From Microlunatus flavus (GTDB taxonomy: Bacteria > Actinomycetota > Actinomycetes > Propionibacteriales > Propionibacteriaceae), in the NCBI RefSeq assembly GCF_900110855.1, contig NZ_FOFA01000005.1:248001-312000 (forward strand): DNA of 64,000 bases, given 5' to 3'. The position numbers were made by a program, and so were the translations under genes. How positions within the stretch are numbered: position 1 is the stretch's first letter; each line of letters begins with the position of its first letter. Below, piece by piece: positions 44,502-60,071 of this stretch. A model generated the notes under the pieces. The model saw only the letters and a program-made list of their open reading frames with translations, was not told where the DNA came from and searched no databases.

Positions 44502-45352
44502 CCGCGTACGACCAGACCCCCGGCGCCCTCCCGGAACGCGGGCGCCTGCGGCGGCTCAGCTGGATCGCCGTGCTCGTCCTCGGCGTCGCGGCGTACCTGC
44601 TCGTCCTGCGCACCCTCGTCGGCACCGAGAACCTCAACTTCGTGCCGTCGCTGCTCCTGCTGGGGTCGGTGGTCGTGCCCGCGACCGTCCTCACCTTCGC
44701 CGCGACCGGCGGGCGCCGGGTCGTCGTCGGCGCCGGCCTGCTCGCGCTCGTCGCGATCATCGGCGGCATCATCGGCACCGTCGCCGCCGGCACCCTCGAG
44801 TACGACACGCTGCGCCGCCTCGGCGCCCTGCCGATGTTCTTCGTCGGCCTCATCGAGGAGAGCGCCAAGCTCGTCGTCCCACTGATCGTCGTGCTCCTCG
44901 TGCGCCGCTACCGCAACCCGGCCGCCGGCGTCGTCGTCGGCGTCGCCAGCGGCATGGGCTTCGCCACGCTCGAGACGATGGGCTACGGCTTCAACGCGCT
45001 CATCCAGAGCCGCAGCCTCGCCGCCCTCGACTCCACGCTGCTGCTGCGCGCGCTGCTCTCCCCCGCGGGCCACGTCGCCTGGACCGGCGTCACTGCGGCG
45101 GCGCTGTTCGCTATCCCCGCCTCCGCCCACACGGGGAAGGCGGTCCTGCGGTTCGTGGGGACGTTCGTCGGCGCCGTCCTCCTGCACACGGCCTGGGACG
45201 GTTCCAACAACCTGATCGTCCACGTCCTCGTCGCCGTGGTCAGCGTCGGCGGCCTCCTGGTCGTCATCCACCGCACCCGCCGCACGCTCCCGACCGCCGA
45301 GCACCCCTACGGCCAGCCCGTCTCGGTAGCATCAGCGCCGCAGGGGCGATAG
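44498..45352 (+). CDS. PrsW family intramembrane metalloprotease
   Basis: A 284-residue membrane protease of the PrsW/abortive-infection (CPBP-like) clan, with about eight hydrophobic segments. The catalytic motifs are LIEESAK (Glu 120, Glu 121), FATLETMGYG, SPAGHVAWTG and LLHTAWDG. In Bacillus PrsW starts cleavage of anti-sigma factor RsiW; the actinobacterial target is unknown. GTG overlaps the GT87 stop. Its own stop codon TAG at 45350-45352 lies inside the following tRNA gene, so its last three codons and its stop are tRNA bases. Confidence 0.92.
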   Translation: MTAYDQTPGALPERGRLRRLSWIAVLVLGVAAYLLVLRTLVGTENLNFVPSLLLLGSVVVPATVLTFAATGGRRVVVGAGLLALVAIIGGIIGTVAAGTLEYDTLRRLGALPMFFVGLIEESAKLVVPLIVVLLVRRYRNPAAGVVVGVASGMGFATLETMGYGFNALIQSRSLAALDSTLLLRALLSPAGHVAWTGVTAAALFAIPASAHTGKAVLRFVGTFVGAVLLHTAWDGSNNLIVHVLVAVVSVGGLLVVIHRTRRTLPTAEHPYGQPVSVASAPQGR

Positions 45353-45416
45353 CTCAGCCGGTCAGAGCAAGGGACTCATAATCCTTCGGTCGTGGGTTCA
45401 AGCCCCACTCGCCCCA
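45343..45416 (+). tRNA. tRNA with anticodon CAT (probably tRNA-Ile2, otherwise elongator tRNA-Met)
   Basis: A 74-nt cloverleaf. The acceptor GGGGCGA pairs with TCGCCCC, the D-arm has AGCTCAGCCGGT, and the anticodon loop CTCATAA sits on an AGGGA/TCCTT stem; the T-arm carries GGTTCAAGCCC. The variable-loop pattern AATCCTTCGGTCG recalls bacterial Ile2 tRNAs, in which C34 is modified to lysidine by TilS. Met elongator identity cannot be excluded by eye. Its first ten bases are shared with the 3' end of prsW. Foreign-looking DNA starts directly after it, so it may be an integration site. Confidence 0.92.
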
Positions 45417-45942
45417 CACACTCACCCTGCATCTCCCCTCGTCAGGAGCAAGTTTACGCATCAGACGGGACCAAACGATGCTGATCGGTGCTGTGCAAAC
45501 CCTTGTGCGAAAGCAGGGTGGAAGGCCTGCGTGTGCGAACGGACGTGCGAGACGGCGGCTTGCTGCCCGTGCGTGCTGCGGGACGGCCGACTTCGCTACC
45601 AGGCACCGACTCCACTGGCGCCCGACGGCAAGGCACAACTACTTGCACCCCGGCACAGGGGCGGGCTCGTACTGTGCTGTGTGCAGTTGCGTCCATTTGG
45701 CAGGGACAGTTGCAGCCTGCCAACAGTTTCTTCCGTGCCAAGTGTTTCGTGATGACGCCAGTTGCAGCATGCCAAAGGTTGCGCGGGTGCCAAGGCCGTG
45801 GGGCCTCCCGGAACTGCCTCAGCCGCACCGGTGTCTGTCCCTGCTCTCCTCAGGGCCGGGGACCGCACGTCCACCTCTAGCTCGGCAGCAGCGACCACAC
45901 CTTCCGAGCCGCACCTGGGCAAGGTGTGCTCGACTGCTTCTC
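45417..45942. other. Non-coding boundary region after the tRNA
   Basis: No convincing gene lies in this 526-bp stretch. Every frame gives Cys/Arg-rich peptides without coding character. Base composition drops and becomes uneven compared with the DNA left of the tRNA. Direct repeats of 17 bp lie at 45707 and 45759. I read it as the left edge of an inserted element, perhaps holding regulatory sites. Confidence 0.5.
45707..45775. repeat. Two 17-bp direct repeats, 52-bp period
   Basis: CAGTTGCAGCCTGCCAA at 45707-45723 and CAGTTGCAGCATGCCAA at 45759-45775 differ at one base. They lie upstream of the small nuclease-like gene and could be regulator-binding sites or remnants of duplicated DNA. Confidence 0.6.
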
Positions 45943-46554
45943 ATGGTTGGAGAGGTTGCCTGGGACGACGTGTGGCGAGCGACCGCCAAGCAGCTCGACC
46001 AGTACCGCGGCGCCGGGTTGGAGAACCTGCTCACCGAGGATGTCGTCAGATTTGCCACGATCCAGCAACTGGTGGCCGCGGGGGTCGCCCCCACGAGGCT
46101 GGAGGCCGAGTGGCGCCGACCCGGCGTACCGGACGCTGTCGACCTCGTCGTCTCTGGTCCTGACTTCGCGGCCGTCGAGTTCAAGTACCCGCGCGAGCCG
46201 CGCGAGACGAACGCGGCCTGGACACAGCACTTGGGCGAGGCGCTGAAGGACTTCTACCGCCTCGCCCACATGCCCAAGCAGTTCACGTCGCTGTGGTGCG
46301 TTCAGCTCCTCTCCGAGCGGATGCGGCGCTACCTCGACGGGGTGGCCGACCGCCACGGCGTCCGCTTTGGGCTGGCACCCGGTGAGGAGACGGTGCTCGA
46401 TCCAGCCCGCGTACAAGCGCTACCAGCGACGGCCCACAGAGGCCTCGCCCGCTGGCAGGCGAGCCTGCCGACGGTCGAGGCCCGCTGCTCGGCAGCGCAC
46501 CAGATCGGCAAGGACCTTCTGCTCGTCGTCCACTCAGTGACCCCCCATCCCTGA
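45943..46554 (+). CDS. Small PD-(D/E)xK nuclease-like protein
   Basis: A 203-residue protein of no named family. It shows a probable PD-(D/E)xK core: an N-terminal Glu region (LENLLTED), then GVPDAVDLVV (Asp 67) and the AAVEFKYPRE turn (Glu 79, Lys 81), the E-x-K of restriction-type nucleases. The rest is helical (FYRLAHMPKQF and LLSERMRRYLDG). The ATG at 45943 is the most likely start; no strong ribosome-binding site is present. It converges on the helicase gene with 63 bp between stop codons. This suggests a defence role, but it is not shown that they act together. Confidence 0.6.
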   Translation: MVGEVAWDDVWRATAKQLDQYRGAGLENLLTEDVVRFATIQQLVAAGVAPTRLEAEWRRPGVPDAVDLVVSGPDFAAVEFKYPREPRETNAAWTQHLGEALKDFYRLAHMPKQFTSLWCVQLLSERMRRYLDGVADRHGVRFGLAPGEETVLDPARVQALPATAHRGLARWQASLPTVEARCSAAHQIGKDLLLVVHSVTPHP

Positions 46555-46617: not shown

Positions 46618-49600
46618 TCAGAGAATGTCCTCCCAGGGTTCGTCGGGCTCGGTCTCCGCGAGCGCGTCCTCCTCAGCCTTCGCTTCCTGCTCGGCAGCGA
46701 TGCGAGCCTCCACGACGTCGGCGAGAGCCCAGAAGAAGCCTCGGGGCTGAGCCTCGTCCAGGCACTCCCTTGCGATACGCGCTACCTGGGTCCGGTCGGC
46801 GCCATCTCGAACGAGCGGACAGAGCTCGGCGTCGAATACGCCGTAGCGAAGCCTGCTCGGGGCGAGCCTGCTGTGGGCCGACTCGCGGAGCCCCAGGTCG
46901 CTGCCAAGCGCGGCGATGACCTCGAACGATCCGGTGAGCGACCACACGAGCAGGGTCTCGAGGTGCTGCGTCTTCACGGCTGCCCACGCCTCGGGGTAGG
47001 CCTGGTCGATGTCGGCCTCGCTCGTGCCGGCGACCCACGACGTCAGAGCAGCCTGAAGTGCGGCCGGCTCGACCTCCCGGAGGTCCTCCAGCTCCTGGAG
47101 GTTGGCCACGCACGCCGAGATGAGCCAGAACAGGAGGCGGTCGTGGTCGGCCGGGTCAGGCTGCTCGGCTTGAAGGACGGGAACGATGGCGTCCAGGTTG
47201 GCAGCGATGGCGTCGCGGAGCCGCAGGCAGCCCTCCAGCTTCAAGCCGGACCGGTACACGGCGGCGCGTAGCGCAGGGTCAGGCACTCTGTGAGCGACCT
47301 GCTGGACGTAGCCAGCTCCGTTGGTCAAGGTGGTCTGCTGTAGCTGCGGAGCGGAGGTCGCGGACCAGTAGCTCCGCTGCAGCGCCTCTTCCAGCGCCCG
47401 TCTGAGGTCTCCATCGACCGCTGCCGACTCGGCGAGCGCCTCGATCGTGAGGGCGTCGATGATGTCCTTCTCGGCGGGAAGCATCTGCTGTGGCGCTTGG
47501 TGCCTCAGAACCATCAGCGCTTCGGTGAGGGCGGTCCGCGTTGGCGGAAGGTCCTGCCGCATCGCTCGCCGCCACTTGCGGGCCTGGACGTGATCCGAGG
47601 TCATGACGACGAGACGGCCGCTGACGAAACGGCCTGCCCTACCCGCGCGCCCTTCGAGGTTGCGCAGCCGGGCGATGTCAGGTCGCTGTTCCGGGGTCCT
47701 TGGCGGGTACGCGGCGATGACGGTGCGGGCCGGGAAGTCCACGCCCTCCAGCAACGTGGAGGTGCAGACGATGCACCTGAGAAGGCCTCGCCGGGCAGCG
47801 GACTCGATTGCTCGACGGACGTCGCGGTGCACGTCGGCGTGGTGGAGGCCGAAGCCGTTTCGGAGCGCAGCGGCCTCTGCGGGGTGCAGCACCTCGATCG
47901 AGGCTGCGAGCTCCGTCAGCGTGGGGTGCGGAGTGCTCAGCGGGGCCGCGCTTGCTGAGATCGTGTTGAAGAGGCCCAGCGCGCGGGACTTGAGGTCGGT
48001 GAAGACGACTACTAGCCCCTCTGACGTCCACTTCTCGACGAGCCCAGCAGCCTCGTGCTTCCTGTCGCGGATCCAACCGTCGCCCTTCGACTTGTCGCTC
48101 GGCTTGAGCGTGAAGACCTCGACGGGGTCCGACCCTTCGGGCCAGAGGTATGCGGTAAGGGCGCGAGTCGGGCTGGTGCCCGGGAGGCCGCGGATGTAGA
48201 CGTGACGCTCTAGCCAGGCGGGGTGCCAGTCGGACTCCAGAGCGTCGCCGTTGATCCAGTTCGCGATGGCCTCGACGTCGGAGAACTGGCTGGCCAGGAG
48301 GACCACGCGGATGTCGCGCCGCAAGGCCTTGGCGATGAGGAGCTCGAGGGTGGCGCCGCGGGGTCCGTTGTCCACGTGCTGCGCCTCGTCGACGACGAGC
48401 AGCTTGATGTTCTGAAGATCGATGCCGCCGTCGTCGGTCATCGCCCGTCGCCAGTCGAGGTCGAGTCGCTCGGGAGTCACGACGGCGACCCCCGGGCCGT
48501 CCAGGACGCCTCCAGCGGAGGGGAGGTCGGTGTCGTAGTCCAGGCCGCCTTGGGAGGACCGGACGCTGACGTCGTCGGGCAGTCCGTCTCGTAGGTCGCG
48601 GAACAGCTGGCCGACGAGGGCGCGTGTGGGGGCGACGACCGCGACGACCCCGTCAGGGTGGCGGTCGATGGTGTCTGCGGCGACGAGCTGCATGAGGGTG
48701 GTCTTGCCAGCGCTCGTGGGCATCTTGATGGCCAGAGACCTCTGCGTCGGGTCGAGGAGGCCGCCACGGAGGGCTTCGGCCTGGGATGGCCAGAAGGCAT
48801 GGCGGCCGTATCGGCGCATGTAGCTGACCACGTGCTGTACGGCGACGCCGGTGGCGCCCTTCGCCTCGGTCATGGTCTGCGGATGCCGCTCCAGTCGGTG
48901 CAGGAGTGCGGCTGCAACGTGCCGAGCCGCCTCCATCAGGGCCCCGTCAGCGGTCGTTGTGTCGAGAACTTCGCGCAGCTTGCCGGGGGGCGCGCTGAGG
49001 TTCAGGACGTTGCGAGCGGCGTCGGCGAAGCCCGCGAGGGAGCGACCCTTCAGGGTTGTCCGGGCACCTGAGAGTGCGCCGGTCAGGAGCTGGGCGAGGC
49101 CACGGACGTCAGGATCCGGGTCTGTGGCAGCCGCCCCAGCGCGAGCGAGTGCGATGCCGTCTTCGTTGGCCAAGTACCACAGGCTCGACTCGAGGACGGT
49201 GTGCAGAGGCGTAGGTACGGCGGTGCTCGCCAGCTGAGCCGGCATATCGCGGCTGAGCAGGCCGGAGATGCCGGCCTTGGCGCCTGGCCGAACCAGAGTC
49301 GAGGCCCCGCCAGTCAAGTCTGCGTAGGTGAGGCGCGCCGCCGCGTCGAAGATGCGGTCGCGAGTGTCATCGAGATTTGGGACCAGGACGACGTGCAGCT
49401 CTGTGATGGGTGGGGTGCCGGTCCAGTGCTCGTCGATCTTGAACGCAGGTAGCCGGTCCTCTCCGACCACGGCGACCGCGTGACGTAGGTGCGGCGCCAG
49501 GGGTGCGTCGGGGTCGATGAGTCGGCCCAGGTGCTGAGCCGCCGACAGCGCGAAGTTCCGTGCGTGGTCAGGGTGGGCGCGCATGAGCCGCACACCGGCG

Positions 49601-50091
49601 GCCCAAGCCTGGGCCAGGTACTCGTCTGTGACGACCTGGGCACTGTCGTCGAGAGCGGTGAGCACATTCGAGGGCCAGCCGATGGAGCGGCACTTCGCCT
49701 CGACCACGACGGGCTTCGGCTTCTCGCCGTGGCTGAGGGTGAGGCCCATCGTGTCGGGGCCCTGAATGGTCGCGTTGGCGACAGGCTTTCCCTGCAGCTT
49801 GCTGTAGGGCACTGTGCGACCCATCCGGGTGCTGTAGATGCCTGCCGCGATCATCTCGCCGAAGTCACCCTTGCGAACGCTGTCGTAGGTCGGGACCGTG
49901 GGGCCCACGCTGGCGTTGGGGTAGGCAAGGCGCTCGTCGTCCGGGAGGTAGGCGCGTCCGACGGCGACAGCGAGGGTGGCGATGTCGCGCGGGGTCACGT
50001 CGAGCGTCCATCTGAAGACGGTCAGTTGCCCGTCGCACGTCAGCTCGGGCCGTGCGGTTGCGCGGAGCTTGGCGCCGAACGCCGTTGTCAC
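46618..50091 (-). CDS. Single-chain Hachiman-like defence protein: HamA-like (DUF1837) nuclease plus HamB-like DEAD/DEAH helicase
   Basis: About 1,157 residues from the GTG at 50091. The N-terminal ~300 residues match the DUF1837/HamA pattern: KGDFGEMIAAGIY (Glu 79), SKLQGKPV, IQGPDTMGL (Asp 113) and VVVEAKCRS (Glu 131, Lys 133), a PD-(D/E)xK site, followed by LHVVLVPNLDD. The superfamily 2 helicase part shows MPTSAGKTT (residues ~458-464), VVDEAQHVD (568-571), CTSTLLEGVDFPAR and NLEGRAGRAGR near residue 818. Hachiman normally uses separate HamA and HamB proteins; here both are in one chain. A longer frame begins at TTG 50316 but its first 75 codons look non-coding. Confidence 0.75.
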   Translation of the reverse strand: MTTAFGAKLRATARPELTCDGQLTVFRWTLDVTPRDIATLAVAVGRAYLPDDERLAYPNASVGPTVPTYDSVRKGDFGEMIAAGIYSTRMGRTVPYSKLQGKPVANATIQGPDTMGLTLSHGEKPKPVVVEAKCRSIGWPSNVLTALDDSAQVVTDEYLAQAWAAGVRLMRAHPDHARNFALSAAQHLGRLIDPDAPLAPHLRHAVAVVGEDRLPAFKIDEHWTGTPPITELHVVLVPNLDDTRDRIFDAAARLTYADLTGGASTLVRPGAKAGISGLLSRDMPAQLASTAVPTPLHTVLESSLWYLANEDGIALARAGAAATDPDPDVRGLAQLLTGALSGARTTLKGRSLAGFADAARNVLNLSAPPGKLREVLDTTTADGALMEAARHVAAALLHRLERHPQTMTEAKGATGVAVQHVVSYMRRYGRHAFWPSQAEALRGGLLDPTQRSLAIKMPTSAGKTTLMQLVAADTIDRHPDGVVAVVAPTRALVGQLFRDLRDGLPDDVSVRSSQGGLDYDTDLPSAGGVLDGPGVAVVTPERLDLDWRRAMTDDGGIDLQNIKLLVVDEAQHVDNGPRGATLELLIAKALRRDIRVVLLASQFSDVEAIANWINGDALESDWHPAWLERHVYIRGLPGTSPTRALTAYLWPEGSDPVEVFTLKPSDKSKGDGWIRDRKHEAAGLVEKWTSEGLVVVFTDLKSRALGLFNTISASAAPLSTPHPTLTELAASIEVLHPAEAAALRNGFGLHHADVHRDVRRAIESAARRGLLRCIVCTSTLLEGVDFPARTVIAAYPPRTPEQRPDIARLRNLEGRAGRAGRFVSGRLVVMTSDHVQARKWRRAMRQDLPPTRTALTEALMVLRHQAPQQMLPAEKDIIDALTIEALAESAAVDGDLRRALEEALQRSYWSATSAPQLQQTTLTNGAGYVQQVAHRVPDPALRAAVYRSGLKLEGCLRLRDAIAANLDAIVPVLQAEQPDPADHDRLLFWLISACVANLQELEDLREVEPAALQAALTSWVAGTSEADIDQAYPEAWAAVKTQHLETLLVWSLTGSFEVIAALGSDLGLRESAHSRLAPSRLRYGVFDAELCPLVRDGADRTQVARIARECLDEAQPRGFFWALADVVEARIAAEQEAKAEEDALAETEPDEPWEDIL

Positions 50092-50490
50092 GGGTGCCGG
50101 GGGGTCCGACGACGAGCCGTCGAACTTGGTGTCGCGGGCATAGCTCTCCTGGTCGGATGGTCTCCAAGACGGTGCTTCGGCAGGTCTGCTGCGCACAGGG
50201 CCCGGAGTCCCCGAAGGTACGGGACGCCACCACACCTCGAGCTGCCGTGAGGGAGTGTCGGGCGGACGGACCACCCACGCCCCACCATGACCTCTTCCGG
50301 TGCGGGCCGAGTTCAAGATCAGACCGTCGATAAGAAGGCTATTGGGGTCCTGCCGGCATCAAAACTGACCCGTGACCGTCGTGGCCTCCGGGTCCGTGCA
50401 CGGCGCACCCGGAGCGCTTCCTCGTCCAGCGCGGTGGCTGACGGCAGGTGTCGGTGCCGGAGGCGACACTGACGTGGAGAAGGAGGCCCC
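50092..50490. other. Divergent region between the helicase and HEPN genes
   Basis: This holds no convincing gene. The minus-strand frame of the helicase stays open to 50316 but encodes Pro/Arg/Ser-rich sequence without domain character. The last ten bases carry GGAGAAGGAGG, the ribosome-binding site of the HEPN gene. Promoters for both defence genes should lie here. Confidence 0.4.
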
Positions 50491-51315
50491 GTGCCCGAAC
50501 CGTCCAAACCGCCCATGCCCGTCTTCGACGTGCAGCTCACTGAGGCGGTCAGCAACATCCTCGCCGCAACCGACCGCCCTGGCCTGACCAAGGGCGAGTT
50601 GATCTCGGCGCTGCGTCCGGCACGGCTCGAGTGGGAGGACGGCGAGAACAAGCGCGCCGCGCTGCTGCGCCTGCTCCACAACGCGCAGGTGCGCCGCGGC
50701 CGCGGGGACACGCTCGTCGTGTTCGTCAACGCCGCGCTGAACCCCTCGCGTTACGTCAACGACCACGCCCGCTTCGACCGCCTCCGCGGACAGCTGAACG
50801 AGCTGCTCAGCCTCTACGGGTTCAAGATCACCGAGCAGGGCAAGTTCGCTCGAGGGCAGCAGGCGGCCACCCTGAGCGAAGCCGCCCGTCTCTCCGGCGA
50901 GCTGGTCAGCGAGCTCCGGCGCCGCGGGTGCCACCAGCTCCTGCTCACCTACTGCGGCGAAGAGCTCGTCCGCAAGTCGCTGTTCCACGCCATCAGCGAG
51001 GCGTCGAAGAGCATCCCCGACCGCATCCGGCGGCACACCGGTCTCGGTGAGGACGGCGAGGACCTGTACGGACGTGTCTTCGGCACCAAGACCGTCGCAC
51101 CCCTCATCACCGTTACCGCCATGAGCAACGACTCCGAGACCAGCGAGCACCGCGGCTTCAAGAACCTGCTGACCGGTATCCATGGGCACTACCGCAACCC
51201 TCGGGCCCACGCCACGCGGCTCGGTTCGAGCGAGGAGCACAACGACTTCTTCGACGCGTTCGCTCTCTTCTCCTACGTCCACAGGCGGCTGGACCAAGCA
51301 GGCGTGCGGCCCTGA
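50491..51315 (+). CDS. TIGR02391 (Ymh-like) family HEPN protein
   Basis: A 274-residue cytosolic protein. An N-terminal helical region of ~115 residues is followed by the Ymh-type domain, with LVRKSLFHAISEASKSIPDRIR, then SEHRGFKNLLTGIHGHYRNPRAHA. The latter holds Arg 235 and His 240, an R-x4-H motif of HEPN ribonucleases found in abortive-infection and toxin systems. A strong AAGGAGG site precedes the GTG. It is divergent from the helicase and separated from the CBASS genes by a hairpin. It may be a stand-alone defence effector; cleavage activity is inferred only from the motif. Confidence 0.78.
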   Translation: MPEPSKPPMPVFDVQLTEAVSNILAATDRPGLTKGELISALRPARLEWEDGENKRAALLRLLHNAQVRRGRGDTLVVFVNAALNPSRYVNDHARFDRLRGQLNELLSLYGFKITEQGKFARGQQAATLSEAARLSGELVSELRRRGCHQLLLTYCGEELVRKSLFHAISEASKSIPDRIRRHTGLGEDGEDLYGRVFGTKTVAPLITVTAMSNDSETSEHRGFKNLLTGIHGHYRNPRAHATRLGSSEEHNDFFDAFALFSYVHRRLDQAGVRP

Positions 51316-51490: not shown

Positions 51491-52651
51491 ATGCCCAGCA
51501 AGCGACGCAAGGCGATCCCACACCTAGAGCGCTTGAAGGTCTGGGTCCGCTCCGGAGGGCGGTGCGCCATCTGCGGGCGCTACCTGCTGGAGGGCGCGCT
51601 GGCTCATCTCGAGGTCACGCTCGGCGAGCTCGCCCACATCGTTGGCCAGCAGACGACCGAAGGGTCCCCCCGCGGGGAGCACGAGCTGCCCGAGGGGGAG
51701 CGTGACAAGGCCGAGAACCTCATGCTCCTGTGCGCCGGGGAGCACGACGAAGTCGACCGGGCCGGCTCGGTCGACGTCCTCACCGTCGAGCGGCTGCGGA
51801 AGATCAAGAACGAGCACGAGGCGTGGATCTTCCGGATGACCGGCCTGGAGCGGAACCGTGGCACGGCCGTCCTGCGCATGATCGGGATGGTCCGCGGGAA
51901 CGCCGTCGAACTGTCGCGCCCGGCAGCCTCCGACGCAGTCCTCCGCTCCGACGACCGCTTCCCGGACTTCCCGCTCAGCTACGAGCAGTACGGCTTCGAG
52001 ATCGACCTGCGTCACGTCGCGCAGGAAGGCACCGACGCGTACTGGTCCGGGGCGCGAGCCATCATCGACGAGACCATCGAGCACAAGCTCAAGGAGGCGG
52101 TCCGTCGAGACTCGATTCGCCACCTAAGCGTCTTCGGGTTCGCCCGGCTCCCGCTGCTGGTCTACCTGGGCAGCCGGCTCGACGACACCTACGAGGTCGC
52201 CGTCTACCAGCGCCACCGGTCGACAAACAGCTGGGCGTGGCCCGACGACGCAGACCCCGTCGAGCTCGACGTGGAGACCTACCCCGCCAGCGATTGCAGC
52301 TCCAGCGACGCCGTGCTCGTGCTCAACGTCGCGGGCACCATCCAGCCGGAGGAACTCCCCCACGAGGTGTCGACGTACCGACGTCTGGTGCTGTCACCCG
52401 TAGGGAAGACGCCCGCCGTTGACCTGATCTCCTCACCGACAGCCCTCGAGAGCTTCTCCAGGCGCGTCCGAGAGCTGCTCTCCGAGCTGGAGGTGACCGA
52501 CAAGCAGATGCCGGCACTTCACGTCTTCGCGGCACTGCCGCTGTCCGCCGCTGTCGCCCTCGGCCGGGCCCGTGACCCGCACGTCCACCCCCCGTTCGTC
52601 GTGTACGACCGCGCCGACGGCTCCTACCGACCCGCGCTGGAGATCTCGTGA
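51491..52651 (+). CDS. cap5: CBASS effector: HNH endonuclease with SAVED domain (Cap5-like)
   Basis: A 386-residue effector nuclease. The N-terminal HNH domain contains CAICGRYLL (Cys 25, Cys 28), GELAHIVGQ (His 49), ENLMLLC (Asn 76, Cys 81) and EHDEVD (His 85). A SAVED sensor domain follows from about residue 150 (LRHVAQEG, HLSVFGFARLPLLVYLGSRLDD and HVFAALPLSAAVALGR). The family binds a cyclic oligonucleotide through SAVED and then degrades DNA, killing the infected cell. An AAGGAG site precedes the ATG. The CD-NTase gene overlaps its last four bases (GTGA), so both are made together. Confidence 0.93.
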   Translation: MPSKRRKAIPHLERLKVWVRSGGRCAICGRYLLEGALAHLEVTLGELAHIVGQQTTEGSPRGEHELPEGERDKAENLMLLCAGEHDEVDRAGSVDVLTVERLRKIKNEHEAWIFRMTGLERNRGTAVLRMIGMVRGNAVELSRPAASDAVLRSDDRFPDFPLSYEQYGFEIDLRHVAQEGTDAYWSGARAIIDETIEHKLKEAVRRDSIRHLSVFGFARLPLLVYLGSRLDDTYEVAVYQRHRSTNSWAWPDDADPVELDVETYPASDCSSSDAVLVLNVAGTIQPEELPHEVSTYRRLVLSPVGKTPAVDLISSPTALESFSRRVRELLSELEVTDKQMPALHVFAALPLSAAVALGRARDPHVHPPFVVYDRADGSYRPALEIS

Positions 52652-53976
52652 ATCTGACCGGCTACTTCAAGGCGTTCCTCGACAACACCGTCGACCTGAA
52701 CCAGACCCGGCTCGACCAGCTCGACAGTCGGGTGGCCTCGATCGTCAACGTGCTCGAGAACGACAGCGAGCTCGGCGAACACGTGCGCGAGCACATCCGC
52801 CAGGGCTCGTGGGCGCACCGGACCATCATCAAGCCGCTGAACAACCACGAGTTCGACGCCGACATCCTCCTGCGCCTCGACGAGGAGCAGGAGTGGGACG
52901 AGCAGCAGTACCTCGACGAGGTCTGGGCCGCCCTGCGTCGCTCGTCGATGTACCGCCATATGGTGAAGAAGAAGAACCGGTGCGTCCGCGTCGTGTACGC
53001 CGGCGACTGTCACGTCGACGTCGTGCCCCACGTCCACCTCGCCGACGGTCGCCAGGTCATCGTGAACTACGAGGAGGCGGTGTTCGAGGAGACCAACCCA
53101 GAGGGCTTCACGGCCTGGATGAAGGAGCGCGACACCCTCGCGCACCGCAACCTCCGCAAGGTCCTGCGCCTGCTGAAGTACCTGCGCGACTACAAGCAGA
53201 CGTTCAGCGTGCCGTCGATCATCCTCACCCTGCTCGTCGCCGAGCGTGTCACCGCCTGGGACGCCGACGAGCGCTACAAGGACGTTCCCACGGCGCTGAA
53301 GAACCTGCTCGACGACCTCGACACGTGGCTCCAGATGTACCCGACGATGCCCACGCTCGAGGACCCCAGTTGCCCGGGCACGACCTTCAACCACCGCTGG
53401 GACCAGGCGCAATACGAGAACTTCCGCACCAAGATCGCGAGGTACTCCGGCTGGGTCACCGAGGCCTACGACGAGACCGACAAGCAGAAGAGCATCACCG
53501 CCTGGAAGCGCGTGTTCGGTGACGCCTTCAAGGCCCCCGCAGCTCTCAGCGCCGCGTTGAGCTCAGCACGTACGGACGAGGCGCCCGTCCTGCTTCCTCG
53601 TGCTCCCAAGGAGCAGTACATCGAAGAGCGCGGGTACGAGATGGTGCTCAGCCACAAGGCTCAGATCACGGCCATGGTGCTCAAGAAGGACGGGTTCCGG
53701 TCAGGGCCCCTGCGCCGGCTTGGATCAGTCGGCAAGCACCGGAGGGTGCGCTTCAGCGTCACGACAGATGTTCCCGGCCCCGTCGACGTGTTCTGGAAGG
53801 TCCGCAACGTCGGACCGGAGGCGGCCCACCAGCTTCGAGGCGAGATCAGCAAGGACGACGGCAGTCTGAGCCGCACCGAGCCGACCATGTACCGCGGACG
53901 CCACTACGTCGAGGTCTACATCGTCAAGAACGACCGGGTACTGGCGATGGACCGGCACGACGTCCCCATCTCCTAG
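52648..53976 (+). CDS. CBASS cyclic-oligonucleotide synthase (CD-NTase) with AGS-C-like C-terminus
   Basis: A 442-residue nucleotidyltransferase that makes the second messenger on phage infection. The SMODS active site is complete: GSWAHRTI (Gly 53, Ser 54), then FDADILLRL (Asp 70, Asp 72) and HVDVVPHV (Asp 124). Helices of the NTase core run to about residue 320. The final ~110 residues (HKAQITAMVLKK, RRVRFSVTTDVPGPVDVFWKVRNVGPEA and YRGRHYVEVYIVKN) resemble the AGS-C sensor domain linked to such enzymes. No Cap2/Cap3, HORMA or TRIP13 gene is present, so it is a minimal two-gene system. The clade and product are not assignable by eye. Confidence 0.9.
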   Translation: MNLTGYFKAFLDNTVDLNQTRLDQLDSRVASIVNVLENDSELGEHVREHIRQGSWAHRTIIKPLNNHEFDADILLRLDEEQEWDEQQYLDEVWAALRRSSMYRHMVKKKNRCVRVVYAGDCHVDVVPHVHLADGRQVIVNYEEAVFEETNPEGFTAWMKERDTLAHRNLRKVLRLLKYLRDYKQTFSVPSIILTLLVAERVTAWDADERYKDVPTALKNLLDDLDTWLQMYPTMPTLEDPSCPGTTFNHRWDQAQYENFRTKIARYSGWVTEAYDETDKQKSITAWKRVFGDAFKAPAALSAALSSARTDEAPVLLPRAPKEQYIEERGYEMVLSHKAQITAMVLKKDGFRSGPLRRLGSVGKHRRVRFSVTTDVPGPVDVFWKVRNVGPEAAHQLRGEISKDDGSLSRTEPTMYRGRHYVEVYIVKNDRVLAMDRHDVPIS

Positions 53977-55155: not shown

Positions 55156-55446
55156 TCATCCCCGTGGCACCGGGAGCTCGGGCGGCTGGCAGATGGCCTC
55201 GACGGTCGCGACCGCTTCCTCGAGACGCAGCGGTTCGTGGCCGAAGCAGCAGAGCTCGACGACCAAGTAAGCGGCGGGCAGTCCCAGCCGCTCGGCACGG
55301 TCACACAGCTCGATCGACCACTCGGCGTACTCGCGGGTCCACCTGAAATGCTCGAACTGGTCGGCGCCAGACCGGATGCCCCCGAAGAAGGCGGCGACCA
55401 GGCGGGTGCGAAGGTCGCCTTCCGGCTCCTCGGCTGACGTCGTCAC
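55156..55446 (-). CDS. Unknown small protein of the 54-56 kb operon
   Basis: Unrecognised 96-residue acidic, mostly helical protein. Its GTG start overlaps the previous stop codon (GTGA), giving a firm start and translational coupling. Segments include LVAAFFGGIRSGADQFEHFRW and WSIELCDRAERLGLPAAYLVVELCCFGHEPLRLEEAV, with adjacent Cys residues. It has no signal peptide. Its small size and tight coupling suggest it works with the upstream paralogue-pair protein. Confidence 0.6.
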   Translation of the reverse strand: MTTSAEEPEGDLRTRLVAAFFGGIRSGADQFEHFRWTREYAEWSIELCDRAERLGLPAAYLVVELCCFGHEPLRLEEAVATVEAICQPPELPVPRG

Positions 55447-56174
55447 CGCGCCATCTTCAGCGGAGGGTCGGCCACCGCCGCGATCGCGGAGGAGGCGGAC
55501 GTCGCCCGCTCGCCCGGCACGTCGACTGAGGCGATCGCCTCCGCGGCGATCAGAAGCTCGACGGGGTCTCCCGTCCAGGTGGGCACGAGCTTGAGCGCGA
55601 TGTCGCGCACGGCGCGCGTGATCTGCCCGCTTCGCTCGGCAGCGCGTACCTCGTGACGCAGCGAGATGTCGATGAACCGTCGGCGGTACTCGGGCAGCTC
55701 GTCGTCGATGTAATCGGCGGCCTCGCGGCTCGTACCGGCACATTCCCGGTGGTAGCGAGCCGTCGCCAGTCTTTTCACGGCCGTGCTGAGCAGCCACTCG
55801 TCGCTGGACCTCCAGCCTGCTTCGCGCATGGCCGCCATCACCCGTTCAAGGTCGCTGTTCACCGGCTCGTGTCTCCCACGGCGAGGACGGCGCGAGCGGT
55901 CATCAGCAATTCGGCACTGCCGGTGCCGGCCCAAGTTGGGGAGCAGCGCGTCGAGCACCCGGGCCTCGTCGACGCCGTTCTCACCGCGGAGCGATGCGCC
56001 GTACAGCTCCCGCGCGATCGCGCTGCGAGTCCTCTGCCGCGCCGCGTTGACGTTGCCTCGCGTTGCCTGGAGCTGTGCCAGCTCGCGTCGATCGCGCGCC
56101 CGGCGCAGCACGTTGTCGGCCCACTCATCCCCGGTGAAACCGACCTTCTGCCACGCTCCCGCTCGTTCACGCAA
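55443..56174 (-). CDS. Unknown tandem-paralogue protein, or two genes joined by a frameshift
   Basis: As sequenced this is one frame of 243 residues (TTG start after AGGAG). It appears to be two related genes. Part A runs from 56174 to about residue 80; removing one base from the G-run at 55938-55941 would let it end PTWAGTGSAELLMTARAVLAVGD-TSR at a stop at 55859. Part B starts at GTG 55862, overlapping that stop in the same GTGA style used by the next gene, and ends with VPTWTGDPVELLIAAEAIASVD. The two matching C-terminal segments show A and B are paralogues. The linker read without the shift is Arg-rich and looks non-coding. Function unknown. Confidence 0.55.
   Translation of the reverse strand: MRERAGAWQKVGFTGDEWADNVLRRARDRRELAQLQATRGNVNAARQRTRSAIARELYGASLRGENGVDEARVLDALLPNLGRHRQCRIADDRSRRPRRGRHEPVNSDLERVMAAMREAGWRSSDEWLLSTAVKRLATARYHRECAGTSREAADYIDDELPEYRRRFIDISLRHEVRAAERSGQITRAVRDIALKLVPTWTGDPVELLIAAEAIASVDVPGERATSASSAIAAVADPPLKMAR
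55938..55941. other. G-run at an apparent +1 frameshift
   Basis: Four Gs (CCCC on the coding strand) occur where the reading of part A leaves its paralogue-like frame. A run of three would give a normal end and the usual GTGA overlap. It is an assembly error, a real mutation, or a programmed shift. Confidence 0.55.
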
Positions 56175-56771
56175 GCTCTCCTGCTAGTCGGGCGGGCCAG
56201 GTGAGCTTGGCCCGATTCGGTCGGTTCACGCCGACGCCGGTCCTGCAGTCGTGAATTACCGATGCGACAGTGCGGGTCGTCCACGATGCCCGCGCCCTCC
56301 TGAGAAAGCCGCGCGACCTGCACATGCCGCCGATGATGTCGCGCAGAGCGGACAGCGATCACGGACGAAGTGGTCGACGGGTCCGGTTCAGCTCAGCCGA
56401 GGTGGACTGCTTGTCACCGCTCGTGGACAGCCGGTCTCGAGAGCTCGGTAGCGCCCGATGGTCCTGGCATCGCGACGGTGTCCACCGGACCGTCTGCGGC
56501 ATGACGACTCCCCGCACGACTTTCCGCCAGCGGCTCGACCAATTGCGCGCCCTGTCGCGTCCTAACCTCGGACAGACGTTCGACAGGCCTGGTGAGCAGA
56601 TGCTCCTGCCTCTTGGCTCCAGCGATCTGGCCGTGACCAGGTCCAACGATGACAACGCGGTAACCGGCGCAACTCCGACATCGGGTGCTCGGTCTCGGAG
56701 TTGAAACCAAGCTCATTGCCTTGATTGAAGTGGTCGGCACGGTGCGGGTTCCCAGCGACAAGGAGCCCACC
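56175..56771. other. Divergent intergenic region before the recombinase gene
   Basis: A 597-bp gap between the unknown operon and the recombinase. Apart from one possible small gene (56501-56704) no coding signal is seen. It must contain both promoters and is a candidate location for the recombinase's own recognition site. Confidence 0.4.
56501..56704 (+). CDS. Possible small protein upstream of the recombinase
   Basis: A 67-residue frame from ATG with moderately biased codons. It begins MTTPRTTFRQRLDQLRALSRPN and ends before the recombinase start. There is no recognised motif and only a weak ribosome-binding site. It may be a small regulator or not a gene. Confidence 0.3.
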   Translation: MTTPRTTFRQRLDQLRALSRPNLGQTFDRPGEQMLLPLGSSDLAVTRSNDDNAVTGATPTSGARSRS

Positions 56772-59700
56772 ATGAACGACCTCCTGGCCAGCTACCACCC
56801 CGACATCGTGCCCCTGGTGCACATGTGCCGACGCTTGCTTAAGGCATCGGTTTCCGCACCAGCGGCCTTCAGCAAGATCTGTCTTCCGCGCTGGACGATC
56901 GTCCTGGCCCGGGTGTCCGACGAGTCTCGCAAGAAGTTCCAGGACAACCTCGACGAAGACCTGGACTGGCTCTGTGGCAACCCGGCGGCCGCCTGGGTGA
57001 AGGCAAACGTCACCGACGTAGAGGCCTTCCGAGCGACTGCGGCCGGCGAGCGCGCACGCGCCAAGGTCGGCATGGAGCCCCTCTACGCCCCAGGCACCAA
57101 GAGGCTCATCGGTGGAGTTCTCGCCCGCGACGGTTGGCTGTTCGTCTTCCTCCTCTCGTCGGCGGCCAAGGCCGACCTGCCGCAGGGGCGCAACGCCGCC
57201 ACGGAGGCGATCCTGGCCTGCCTCCTGGCGGCTGCGCACCACGACCCGCACGACCGCGACGGCCGTCCGTTGCTATACGCGCACTCCCTCGACCGGATCC
57301 TCCGGGCCGAGGAGTACGCCTGGGCCGTCCACTTTACACTCACCCGCACCTATGCCCTCGTCAACGCCGCAGGAACCGAGTTCGACGCCCTCGGCGCCAA
57401 TGCCAAGGACGCGTGGACCCTGATCACCTTCGGCGCCTCCCGTGGACGCGACGACACAGCACGCCGCTTCCTCATCGCCAGGCTCAACAAGGCCCGCGCC
57501 GGCAACTGGCCCGGCAACGCGGTCGGCCTTCCCCGAGGATTCGGGCCGACGACCGACCTCGGCTCCGACGGTCAACCCCTCCCGAACCCGAGCGACGAGC
57601 AGCGCAGCGTGCGACGACCTGTCCCCGACCGTCGCCAGCAGTGGGAGGTCCAGACCATCGTCACAGCCGCACTGAACCCTGAGGTCACCACTTGGGCCGC
57701 GCTGGCCCGCGCCTGCGGCGCTGCCGGCGTCACCTCGCGAGGCGCTGACGAGACCGGCACTCCCCTGTCCGAGCTGCGGGACCTGACCTACGCCGGCCGG
57801 CTCTTGCTCACTCCCGACAAGATCCGCGCCTACTGCACCGGCCTGCTGCGCCACACCGAGACCGGAGTGACACCAGGGCAGTTCAACCCCGGCGACGGCC
57901 ATCGCCTCGTACCACGGTTCCCCGGGGACGCCTTCGGCTCGGTCACCTACGACGTGCGGGTGGGCCGGCCTGAAGATCACGGATGGACCTGGGGCATCAG
58001 CCCAGAGCAGTGGCGCGATGTCCTGATCAAGTTCTGGCTTCCACGAGCTTTCAGCCCTCGGGACTGGAGCTGGAAGGACACGCCTGCTGAGTGGGGTTGG
58101 AACGAGATCCTCGAGGCCGCGCGTCAGGGTCAGCCACAAGACGTCGGCCGAGCCGCCTCCGACACCGAGATGCGACCGTTCTCAGGGCTCATCAAGTGGA
58201 ATGACGCCACGCATCGCCACCTGCTGCGTTGCAGCAGCTCCGAACGCGGGAGAGAGGACCGCTACGAGTGGCGGCGGCAGGCTCACGCCGAGGCCCGCGG
58301 CTCCACCTCGGGGGCCAGCTACACCATGAGCAGCAACGACGGCGAGTCTGTCTCCAGCTGGCCCGTCAAGGAGTTCCATGCAGCCTGGGCGAACCTGGCC
58401 GAGGAGCTCGTCGTCGGACTCATCGCAGACGACCCACACGTCCTCCCCTCGGTCCTGCCCGCCTGTCCTGGGCCGGACGCAGCGGAGCTACGACCAAACC
58501 TCGACAGCCCTGCACGGGCAGCCCGGGCGCGCGAGGAAGCGGCTCTACGAGACGTTGTCCGGACCCATGCGAAGGACGTGGACGCTCTGTCGCTTTCCGC
58601 CGCCCAGAAGCGGGCGGTTGGGGCTGAACAGGCGGCCGCGCGGTACGAGCGCCTCGTCGACACCACCGCGAGCGCGCATGAGCAGGCTGAGCGGAAGCTG
58701 CAGGCCCTGCTTGCAAGCCCGTTGCCTACTCCTGCCGACGACCGTGCTCCGCTCGCCGACTTCGGACCGCCCGCGGCGATCCTTGCTGCCCTGACCGGCC
58801 CGTTCGCCACGGGACGCGCCCCCAAGACCCTTCGCGAAGCCCTCCGAGCCTTTGGTGGAGGTAACACCCGGCTTCACGAGGTGGACGCCACGACCGTGCG
58901 ACTCGACGTCACCGTCGCCGTTCGCCGAACGGACGGAACCCTCAAGACCGCGTCCGGCTCCACCCTCCTCAGACGAAGCCGTCCCAATCTCGAGACCAGG
59001 GAAGCCCGAGCACGGCGCGAACAGGCCAAGGTCGAGCTCGCTCGCAAGTGGTTCTACGACGGCATCAGCCTCGACACCCTCGCTCGACTCGCCGGCACCA
59101 CACCGACTCACGCACAGCGAATCGTGCGCGAACAGCTCGCGACAGGAGACGTCCGAAGCGCCGGTCAGGCTCTGCTCGATGAGCTCGCCGCATCGAGGAT
59201 CCCGCAGCGTGGGCTCCGCGCCGCCATCGCAGCACATCCGATACCCGAAGCGCGGGCATGCGTCTGGAGCGACTTCCACCCGACCGACGCGGTGCCGCAG
59301 CACCTCCACCCCGACTTCCCGGCCGTGGTCCGCGCCACCTACCGCCAATCAACTCATGGCTGGGACCCGCGGACACCGCTGCTAGACGCACGCTCCGACC
59401 ACCGCATCGACGCGATCACGGTCCTCCGCCACCTGCCCGATCCGAGCAGAACGGTTCGCTCTGACCACCTCGCCGCCCTTCTTGGTGTCCCCGTCCGCCA
59501 CATCAACACGATCAGCGGTGGCAGCACGCGCACACAGACCCCCCTGCCTGCAAGCCTTCGGAGAGGCACAGGGTGGAACCGCACCACGGCGGGCGTCGGT
59601 CAGAACGCTCACCGATCGGTGGGCCTCATCCGCTGCCCGTGGACGGACTGCCCCTCCCCGACCGCCGACGTGGTGCTGCTGCTCCCCGAAGTCGTGATCG

Positions 59701-60071
59701 GAACGGACTCCAGCGTGATCTGCCGCAACTGCCGGCGGCCGCCGACCCGCAACGTCAGCTTTCCCCGGAGCTACATGACTGTCGCCGCGAGCGTCGAGAC
59801 CCGCGCAGGCACCTGGATTCGCTGCTGGTCCCCCGAGTGCACCACCGACCTTGGAGCGGGTCCAGCAGTGATGTGGCGCTGGAACGACGCGCCTGCCAGC
59901 GCCGTCGACGCCCACCCGGCATGCGCGGACGCGGGCAGCCACGGGGCAACTAACAAGGCCATCCGGTTGTGGGCGAGCGGCCACGGTCACGCTGTCGCAG
60001 ACCGAGGCAGGATTCCTGCCCAGGTCCGTGCCGCCTACGAGGCCCACCAAAAGGCCGAGCTCACCTCCTAG
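56772..60071 (+). CDS. Very large serine-recombinase-like protein with HTH and C-terminal Cys pairs
   Basis: A 1,099-residue protein; AAGGAG seven bases before the ATG at 56772 decides the start over an upstream frame. The N-terminal part resembles a serine recombinase catalytic domain: TIVLARVSDESRKKFQDNLDEDLDWL (putative nucleophile Ser 49, Arg 47), then SLDRILRAEEYAW (Asp 174, Arg 175) and AGTEFDALG followed by a recombinase-type region (WAALARACGAAGVTSRG). A coiled-coil-like stretch, a helix-turn-helix (ISLDTLARLAGTTPTHAQRI) and C-terminal Cys pairs (CPWTDC, CRNC and CWSPEC) follow. At nearly twice the usual length it is a divergent member. It probably moves the element. Confidence 0.65.
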   Translation: MNDLLASYHPDIVPLVHMCRRLLKASVSAPAAFSKICLPRWTIVLARVSDESRKKFQDNLDEDLDWLCGNPAAAWVKANVTDVEAFRATAAGERARAKVGMEPLYAPGTKRLIGGVLARDGWLFVFLLSSAAKADLPQGRNAATEAILACLLAAAHHDPHDRDGRPLLYAHSLDRILRAEEYAWAVHFTLTRTYALVNAAGTEFDALGANAKDAWTLITFGASRGRDDTARRFLIARLNKARAGNWPGNAVGLPRGFGPTTDLGSDGQPLPNPSDEQRSVRRPVPDRRQQWEVQTIVTAALNPEVTTWAALARACGAAGVTSRGADETGTPLSELRDLTYAGRLLLTPDKIRAYCTGLLRHTETGVTPGQFNPGDGHRLVPRFPGDAFGSVTYDVRVGRPEDHGWTWGISPEQWRDVLIKFWLPRAFSPRDWSWKDTPAEWGWNEILEAARQGQPQDVGRAASDTEMRPFSGLIKWNDATHRHLLRCSSSERGREDRYEWRRQAHAEARGSTSGASYTMSSNDGESVSSWPVKEFHAAWANLAEELVVGLIADDPHVLPSVLPACPGPDAAELRPNLDSPARAARAREEAALRDVVRTHAKDVDALSLSAAQKRAVGAEQAAARYERLVDTTASAHEQAERKLQALLASPLPTPADDRAPLADFGPPAAILAALTGPFATGRAPKTLREALRAFGGGNTRLHEVDATTVRLDVTVAVRRTDGTLKTASGSTLLRRSRPNLETREARARREQAKVELARKWFYDGISLDTLARLAGTTPTHAQRIVREQLATGDVRSAGQALLDELAASRIPQRGLRAAIAAHPIPEARACVWSDFHPTDAVPQHLHPDFPAVVRATYRQSTHGWDPRTPLLDARSDHRIDAITVLRHLPDPSRTVRSDHLAALLGVPVRHINTISGGSTRTQTPLPASLRRGTGWNRTTAGVGQNAHRSVGLIRCPWTDCPSPTADVVLLLPEVVIGTDSSVICRNCRRPPTRNVSFPRSYMTVAASVETRAGTWIRCWSPECTTDLGAGPAVMWRWNDAPASAVDAHPACADAGSHGATNKAIRLWASGHGHAVADRGRIPAQVRAAYEAHQKAELTS

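Follow-up and report, generated by a model that had tools for sequence, protein, structure and literature searches.

A probable single-chain Hachiman variant joins a HamA-type nuclease to a HamB-type helicase in Microlunatus flavus and its relatives

In canonical Hachiman, the helicase HamB binds the nuclease HamA through a HamA-docking helical domain (NAH) and loads a 3' end, whereupon motion of RecA2 reaches the NAH and disturbs the HamA interface; HamA 'may' then be released, and whether cleavage occurs in cis or in trans is left open (PMC12278908). What becomes of such a release when nuclease and helicase form one polypeptide? The question is raised by a gene of Microlunatus flavus, found in a 64,000-nucleotide stretch of contig NZ_FOFA01000005.1 (positions 248,001 to 312,000, hereafter the window), whose single open frame runs from a HamA-type nuclease into a HamB-type helicase (Table 1). 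Since one frame takes the place of separate hamA and hamB genes, we file it as a Hachiman variant rather than a canonical member. Judging from sequence comparisons, we consider it probable (roughly 0.65) that the product is a single-chain Hachiman whose nuclease would be docked at rest and would undock, on its tether, upon helicase loading.

At least 120 relatives of the window protein were collected from the 7993 candidates sharing most words in a protein collection, and 60 of 120, picked by length and spread (1082–1221 aa; P0102 begins at residue 62), were aligned with it (alignment A1). The preliminary description of this locus had named E79, D113 and E131-x-K133 as nuclease residues and had proposed that the N-terminal half is homologous to HamA. 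The positions proved right: all four are invariant in the 61 aligned fused proteins, and in a joint alignment with stand-alone HamAs they recur at 53/54, 54/54, 54/54 and 53/54, respectively, among the 54 ungapped of 56 rows (open reading frames, ORFs, of <600 aa matching the stand-alone HamA profile at 1e-5, which may include a fragment from locus L013). Double mutation of the E138/K140 counterparts in ECOR31 HamA abolished defence (PMC12278908). Homology was borne out as well. Aligned by hhalign, the fused N-termini matched 19 stand-alone HamAs from two-gene loci with a probability of 99.2 and E = 3.2e-19 over 204 columns, and the residues invariant among those 19 are four, the same four. 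In reverse, the stand-alone profile matched the window's own protein (L081) at 1.1e-13. HamA gave the only credible matches among solved structures: a profile of nine fused N-termini found HamA 8vx9_A (E 7.1e-6) and HamA 8vxy_A (1e-4), with everything else above 0.2, and the full family profile found 8vx9_A at 4.2e-7 over profile positions 59–146. The N-terminal 410 aa alone matched PADLOC HamA1 at 6.8e-6, and Pfam HamA (version.17) stands in the precomputed domain list of P0003, a record identical to the window protein, and in those of 46 of the 120 relatives listed (counted by eye, P0003 included). To reach HamA among the solved structures a family profile is needed: when residues 1–300 of the single sequence were compared with the PDB, the best 60 of 78 matches were all to HSP90 (residues 230–278, E ≥0.006) and included no HamA; a Pfam HamA search of the organism's own genome likewise found no match, missing the fused gene itself and the controls. 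Besides the catalytic four, 13 HamA-domain residues are invariant in A1. In the docking loop (residues 102–117 in ECOR31 HamA; PMC12278908), K98 and K102 stay basic in 61/61 fused proteins.

The C-terminal half is HamB-like and, judged by its motifs, a complete Ski2-like helicase, as the preliminary description had also proposed in placing a nuclease and a complete superfamily 2 (SF2) helicase in one chain of about 1,157 residues; the frame is single and the motifs are intact. HamB was the top PADLOC family (1.5e-46, best of 41 families), Pfam recognized DEAD (6.8e-18) and Helicase_C (5.6e-6), and the family profile matched HamB 8vx9_B at E 2.9e-41 in one stretch (profile positions 435–1061), thirteenth among the PDB matches listed. 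RAGRAGR occupies residues 815–821, and the motif II consensus in A1 is DEAH, where the window protein has D568-E569-A570-Q571. Beyond the helicase core, the C-terminal region was compared by hhalign with the C-termini of six HamB groups, giving E = 1.5e-12, 5.2e-17, 2e-9, 3.9e-6 and 7.2e-6 for five and an insignificant 0.012 for the cyanobacterial fusions (for this and the docking-region comparison below, the HamA parts of locus L068 and of the cyanobacterial fusions and 150 residues of locus L028 were removed by hand). The best match stops near residue 1115, whereas that group runs 150 columns further and three others 41–50; because these groups continue past the end of the match, the region is probably shorter than in ECOR31 HamB and the OB-like tail probably missing. 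Our HamB assignment rests on PADLOC, on this C-terminal region and on the HamA partner.

Could sequencing or assembly error have joined two genes? In canonical loci the two frames often overlap, so that one indel could join them. For the window's clade we nonetheless rejected such an artefact, which the preliminary description had named as a way in which its reading could fail, and give it next to no chance: 60 near-full-length relatives, 40–86% identical, have the same junction, and an independent congeneric genome carries a gene (L082) 89% identical across all 1157 residues. Between these two congeneric genes the ratio of nonsynonymous to synonymous substitution rates is 0.18 for residues 1–255, 0.20 for 256–430, 0.09 for 431–860 and 0.29 for 861–1157; purifying selection thus acts along the whole chain, including the junction.

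HamA is separated from a conserved E-x-x-L-W-x-L-A motif (residues 301–308) by 41–49 residues in 61/61 fused proteins, while in 44 other helicases the matching motif comes after 100–200 residues (lengths taken from stop to stop, once HamA had been removed by hand from four fusions). From the motif to the helicase core there are 130–145 residues in the fused clade and 127–133 in a proteobacterial-type group. Region 301–431 matched the pooled HamB groups at E 6e-8 (probability 94.7) when the first helicase motif was kept as an anchor; the controls gave 0.22 (reversed) and 0.6–0.96 (eight column shuffles). It is thus likely, though not proven, that this region is a trimmed NAH and that the start of the docking region was lost in this clade.

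Several observations weigh against a docked, Hachiman-type resting state or against the assignments on which it depends. On the nuclease side, Pfam HamA version.16 falls below its cut-off on the N-terminal 410 aa (E 0.44; 10.8 vs 25 bits), and the R106 equivalent in the docking loop, R in 27/56 stand-alone HamAs, is non-R in at least 59/61 fused proteins. On the helicase side, 12 chains (Slh1, ASCC3, Brr2 and an archaeal Ski2-type helicase) outscore HamB with the family profile, and when the single sequence is the query, Hel308-type and other Ski2 chains rank above it. Between the two, the docking-region match without the helicase anchor keeps its register but has an E of only 0.0065 (probability 5.8), and comparison with single HamB groups either aligns only short stretches, in three groups at the helicase anchor (probabilities 62–82), or yields probabilities of 18–36. 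The shrinkage of the stretch ahead of the canonical NAH motif, from 100–200 residues to about 45, means that docking may differ. Finally, a Microlunatus antarcticus record (P0104) of 734 aa consists of the equivalent of residues 425–1157 only, at 89.8% identity.

That record bears on another reading, in which two proteins exist in the cell because the linker is cleaved or translation also yields HamB by itself, and HamA is set free as in the canonical system. Weak conservation after residue 256 would suit it, as would the N-terminus-less records P0104, P0108, P0109 and P0110 and the isolated start candidates with a short Shine-Dalgarno-like stretch that fall at positions 225–320 in L001, L006 and L007. 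But the window gene, L082 and L002–L005 have no such start between residues 225 and 320, none of five neighbours scanned against Pfam and PADLOC families is a protease, and the short records, which are pieces of fused-clade relatives (42–90% identical) and make up 4 of the 16 proteins lacking the N-terminus, may have been cut short at a contig end or by the choice of start site; the N-terminal part is present in the other 106 of the 122 proteins (the window protein and the relatives set, P0001 and P0002 included). We regard two separate proteins as improbable. The start of the fused gene itself is likely, though not certainly, the GTG given in Table 1: a GTG stands at the column of residue 1 in L082 and L001–L006 as well, and not in L007, but a Shine-Dalgarno-like stretch precedes it in L006 only, L001 has a further start candidate about 53 codons upstream, and in the window a TTG at 50316 offers an upstream alternative in the same frame.

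The permanent tether and the apparently trimmed docking region could also fit an always-on helicase-nuclease confined to cis, as Cas3 or RecB, which would degrade invading DNA without killing the cell. The linker of 41–49 aa in every fused protein aligned speaks for such an enzyme, and Tuck et al. suggest that the abortive phenotype may have to do with the separateness of the subunits (PMC12278908). Yet a nuclease that never switches off would be toxic if its sensor is broad, mild toxicity being seen already with canonical HamAB (PMC12278908), and the 13 further invariant HamA residues are what one expects of a regulated fold, though they are no proof of one. We think this unlikely. Somewhat less doubtful, but still tentative, is the proposal that the actinobacterial lineage forms a distinct single-chain class of Hachiman in which the tether took over from release, with a trimmed docking domain, a linker of fixed reach and cleavage confined to cis; were it true, a system of whole-genome suicide would have turned into one of local DNA destruction, perhaps with survival of the cell.

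In the single-chain Hachiman that we favour, the resting state would have the HamA nuclease docked on the helicase and silent. The trigger would be a free 3' single-stranded end, arising from phage replication, recombination or DNA damage, onto which the helicase loads; ATP-driven motion of RecA2 would shift the short helical region, and the nuclease would undock yet, instead of being released, stay attached by its tether of about 45 residues. It could then cut the DNA under the helicase and any DNA within reach, the cut DNA would feed further activation, and infected cells would lose their DNA. Because the tether holds the nuclease close to the DNA on which the helicase has loaded, cis cleavage appears likely; cleavage in trans, of nearby DNA or via a second molecule, is compatible with the same scheme, and full dissociation of HamA would be precluded only as long as the chain stays whole. 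The preliminary description had held that fusion removes the dissociation step and so implies a different activation mechanism. This was too strong, and we did not take fusion alone as forcing a new activation route: since a tethered nuclease can still undock, the way to the cut DNA may be different without any need for a different trigger.

Regulation of another kind is known from Hna, itself a single chain of an SF2 helicase and a PD-(D/E)XK nuclease (PMC13381803), and by analogy the fused protein might be an autoinhibited homodimer, its nuclease hidden in the ATP-bound dimer until phage SSB or DNA ends break it. However, the domain order of Hna is the reverse, with helicase N-terminal and nuclease C-terminal (PMC13381803), and the fused protein is related to HamA and HamB, which at rest pair as a 1:1 heterodimer (PMC12278908); we consider the homodimer very unlikely. 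Like the fused protein, Hna and the single-gene nuclease-helicase Nhi (PMC12904381) unite helicase and nuclease in one chain that acts on DNA, there against phages; in the literature covered, neither is described as HamA-HamB (PMC13381803, PMC12904381, PMC10732053).

How often did such a fusion arise? The search for other fused proteins that the preliminary description had called for found cyanobacterial cases and one from Streptomyces, besides the 60 near-full-length relatives. In a one-genome-per-species scan, of which the best 80 of 294 relatives were kept, 83 loci with a strong helicase comprised 12 with HamA in the same frame, 44 with a HamA-like ORF adjoining upstream and 27 with none by the fused-HamA profile. 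Two of the 44 (L006 and L013) look like frameshifted fusions; in the 42 two-gene loci that profile (E <0.05) picks an ORF that overlaps the helicase ORF or ends ≤500 nt upstream. The stand-alone profile recovered an upstream HamA in 12 of the 27, the other 15 lacking one, some of them at contig ends. A maximum-likelihood tree built quickly from 100 helicase cores (midpoint root; support by the Shimodaira-Hasegawa-like approximate likelihood-ratio test, SH-aLRT, only), which took 12 fused and 8 helicase-only proteins from the relatives set and left out L007, whose frame is interrupted within the helicase, as well as L006 and L013, required three state changes for the fused condition, and the same number when strongly supported branches alone count. 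The fused groups were an actinobacterial clade (19 rows, support 100, stem 1.81), three cyanobacteria and Streptomyces V4I2 (L068). Three independent fusions would be the simplest reading, one gain with two losses a less simple one. Since it comes from a single genome, the Streptomyces fusion may reflect a sequence error, and a joining indel is conceivable here because its sister, L008, is a two-gene locus. Next to the actinobacterial clade the tree places two long-branched helicase-only rows, P0112 and P0116, a position that may be artefactual.

The hosts of the relatives were recognized by name as what we take to be Actinomycetota, apart from one partial Limnocylindria protein. When up to 12 first-look candidates per genome were scored in 57 genomes, the fused gene (L082) was found in 1 of the 19 other genomes of the genus, and the remaining 55 of the 57 matched from residue 429 on only. 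In a phylum sample of 396 genomes (up to 6 first-look candidates each) the fused type was rare: fused-type HamA occurred at 1e-6 in one, the organism's own, and the stand-alone HamA profile at 1e-5 in three, in frames of 1246 aa (own), 277 aa and 273 aa. Among viral contigs, 21 pattern matches included no relative of the window protein, and of 12 plasmid records found at E 1e-20 none covered 80% of it.

Compared with ECOR31 HamAB (8vx9), the fused protein shares the catalytic E/D/E-x-K, the Ski2-like HamB core with its C-terminal region and the order of nuclease before helicase; it differs in being one chain instead of two, in an apparently shortened and diverged docking region and in the probable absence of the OB-like tail. 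The cyanobacterial fusions likewise hold HamA and HamB in one chain, with the catalytic quartet in L009, L017 and L043, but they stand elsewhere on the tree, measure about 1410 aa and have a near-complete HamB behind HamA (PADLOC HamB positions 4–1068 in L043 and 56–1066 in L009, of 1104, in the two scanned). AbpAB combines a HamA-type domain with a Ski2-like helicase and responds to DNA damage, but has two genes, a HamA-like domain reported to be inactive and an added Cap4-type nuclease (PMC10732053, PMC12278908); in the window protein the HamA site is intact, and a chain that starts at the GTG leaves no space for a further N-terminal domain. HamMAB is also a fusion involving HamA, but there a protease sits on the HamA N-terminus, HamB is separate and the HamA catalytic motif is lost in virtually all (PMC12799240). 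'Other types of HamA fusions' come up in a supplementary figure of that article; HamA and HamB in one chain are not described in the parts of the literature searched, supplements excepted. What appears to be new is the recurrent HamA-HamB fusion, single-chain helicase-nucleases as such being already known from Hna and Nhi.

Tuck et al. do not decide between a HamA that HamB hands over to the loaded DNA and one that it sets free, and they see in the division into two subunits a possible basis of the abortive phenotype (PMC12278908). Nature supplies tests of nuclease release in its fusions, which form one clade with at least 61 members and a separate one in cyanobacteria: a fused system that still clears all cellular DNA would mean that release is not needed. 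Detection rules built on two genes may overlook such fusions. Plasmid pn3 of Nostoc sp. UHCC 0926, typed as conjugative, encodes a 1409-aa protein (L098 3357–7586; WP_273770243.1, annotated only as Hachiman HamA) whose helicase part matches the window protein.

Table 1. Features of the fused gene and its surroundings, in window coordinates
Feature	Position	Strand	Remarks
Single-chain HamA-HamB gene	46618..50091	minus	one open frame, 1157 codons + stop, GTG start, 1157 aa
HamA (DUF1837, PD-(D/E)xK-type) nuclease domain, residues 1–256	49324..50091	minus	hhalign, PDB and PADLOC matches
E79	49855..49857	minus	counterpart of ECOR31 HamA E84 (our numbering, from alignment)
D113	49753..49755	minus	counterpart of ECOR31 HamA D119 (our numbering, from alignment)
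E131-A-K133	49693..49701	minus	counterpart of ECOR31 HamA E138-A-K140
Linker, residues 257–300	49192..49323	minus	weak sequence conservation, length nearly constant
Short helical region, possibly trimmed NAH, residues 301–431	48799..49191	minus	hhalign
RecA1/RecA2 helicase core, residues 432–860	47512..48798	minus	PADLOC HamB; PDB 8vx9_B
P-loop MPTSAGKT, residues 457–464	48700..48723	minus	M457, P458, T459, S460, G462, K463 invariant in A1
Motif II DEAQ, residues 568–571	48379..48390	minus	D568, E569, A570 invariant in A1
HamB-type C-terminal region, residues 861–1157	46618..47511	minus	hhalign to C-termini of six HamB groups
tRNA-Met at island edge	45343..45417	plus	last 49 bp (45369–45417) repeated 35.8 kb away
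203-aa ORF	45943–46554	plus	tail to tail with fused gene; V-D-L-V-V ... V-E-F-K pattern; no Pfam/PADLOC match
Hypoth_Ymh / PD-Lambda-3_B-like protein	50491–51315	plus	beside fused gene
CBASS pair: HNH-SAVED effector and SMODS/AGS_C cyclase	51491–53976	plus	PADLOC 1.1e-149 (endonuclease effector), 1.1e-165 (cyclase)
243-aa ORF	55443–56174	minus	relative ~1.7 kb from congeneric fused gene (L094 3659–4281)
1128-aa protein with C-terminal Lsr2 DNA-binding domain	56685–60071	plus	no other Pfam/PADLOC family

The fused gene lies 1.2 kb inside a 35.8-kb island bounded by 49-bp repeats of the tRNA-Met 3' end (C12 293369–329256, beginning at window position 45369). We infer that the island is mobile because the tRNA repeat stands at both ends; no integrase was recognized within it, a 478-aa ORF at the far repeat (L096 15326–16762) being without Pfam or PADLOC match. 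Together with the neighbouring genes, on the island itself, for a cyclic oligonucleotide-based anti-phage signalling system (CBASS), whose effector and cyclase genes overlap by 4 bp, this tRNA-flanked island forms the context in which we infer a defence role for the fused protein.

Among the other neighbours, the Ymh-type gene, which also belongs to the island, recurs (35% identical) beside a fused gene of the Micropruina type (L005 13590–14411, minus strand; L004 5501–6322, minus strand), but we rejected it as a companion part of the system, since the other loci searched had no match at E 1e-4. By eye, the pattern of the 203-aa ORF is reminiscent of PD-(D/E)xK nucleases. Further along the island, beyond the window (L096 3–6266), lies a gene for a 2087-aa protein with DinG-like and DpdF-like helicase halves (PADLOC DpdF 1.4e-56, typeIV_DinG 9.1e-55), followed by ORFs of 1067 aa (overlapping) and 2103 aa without PADLOC match. 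The 40 kb around the congeneric gene are unrelated to the window's flanks except for stretches of 118 and 614 bp, and the relative there of the 243-aa ORF is 47–61% identical, in two pieces overlapping by a few bases.

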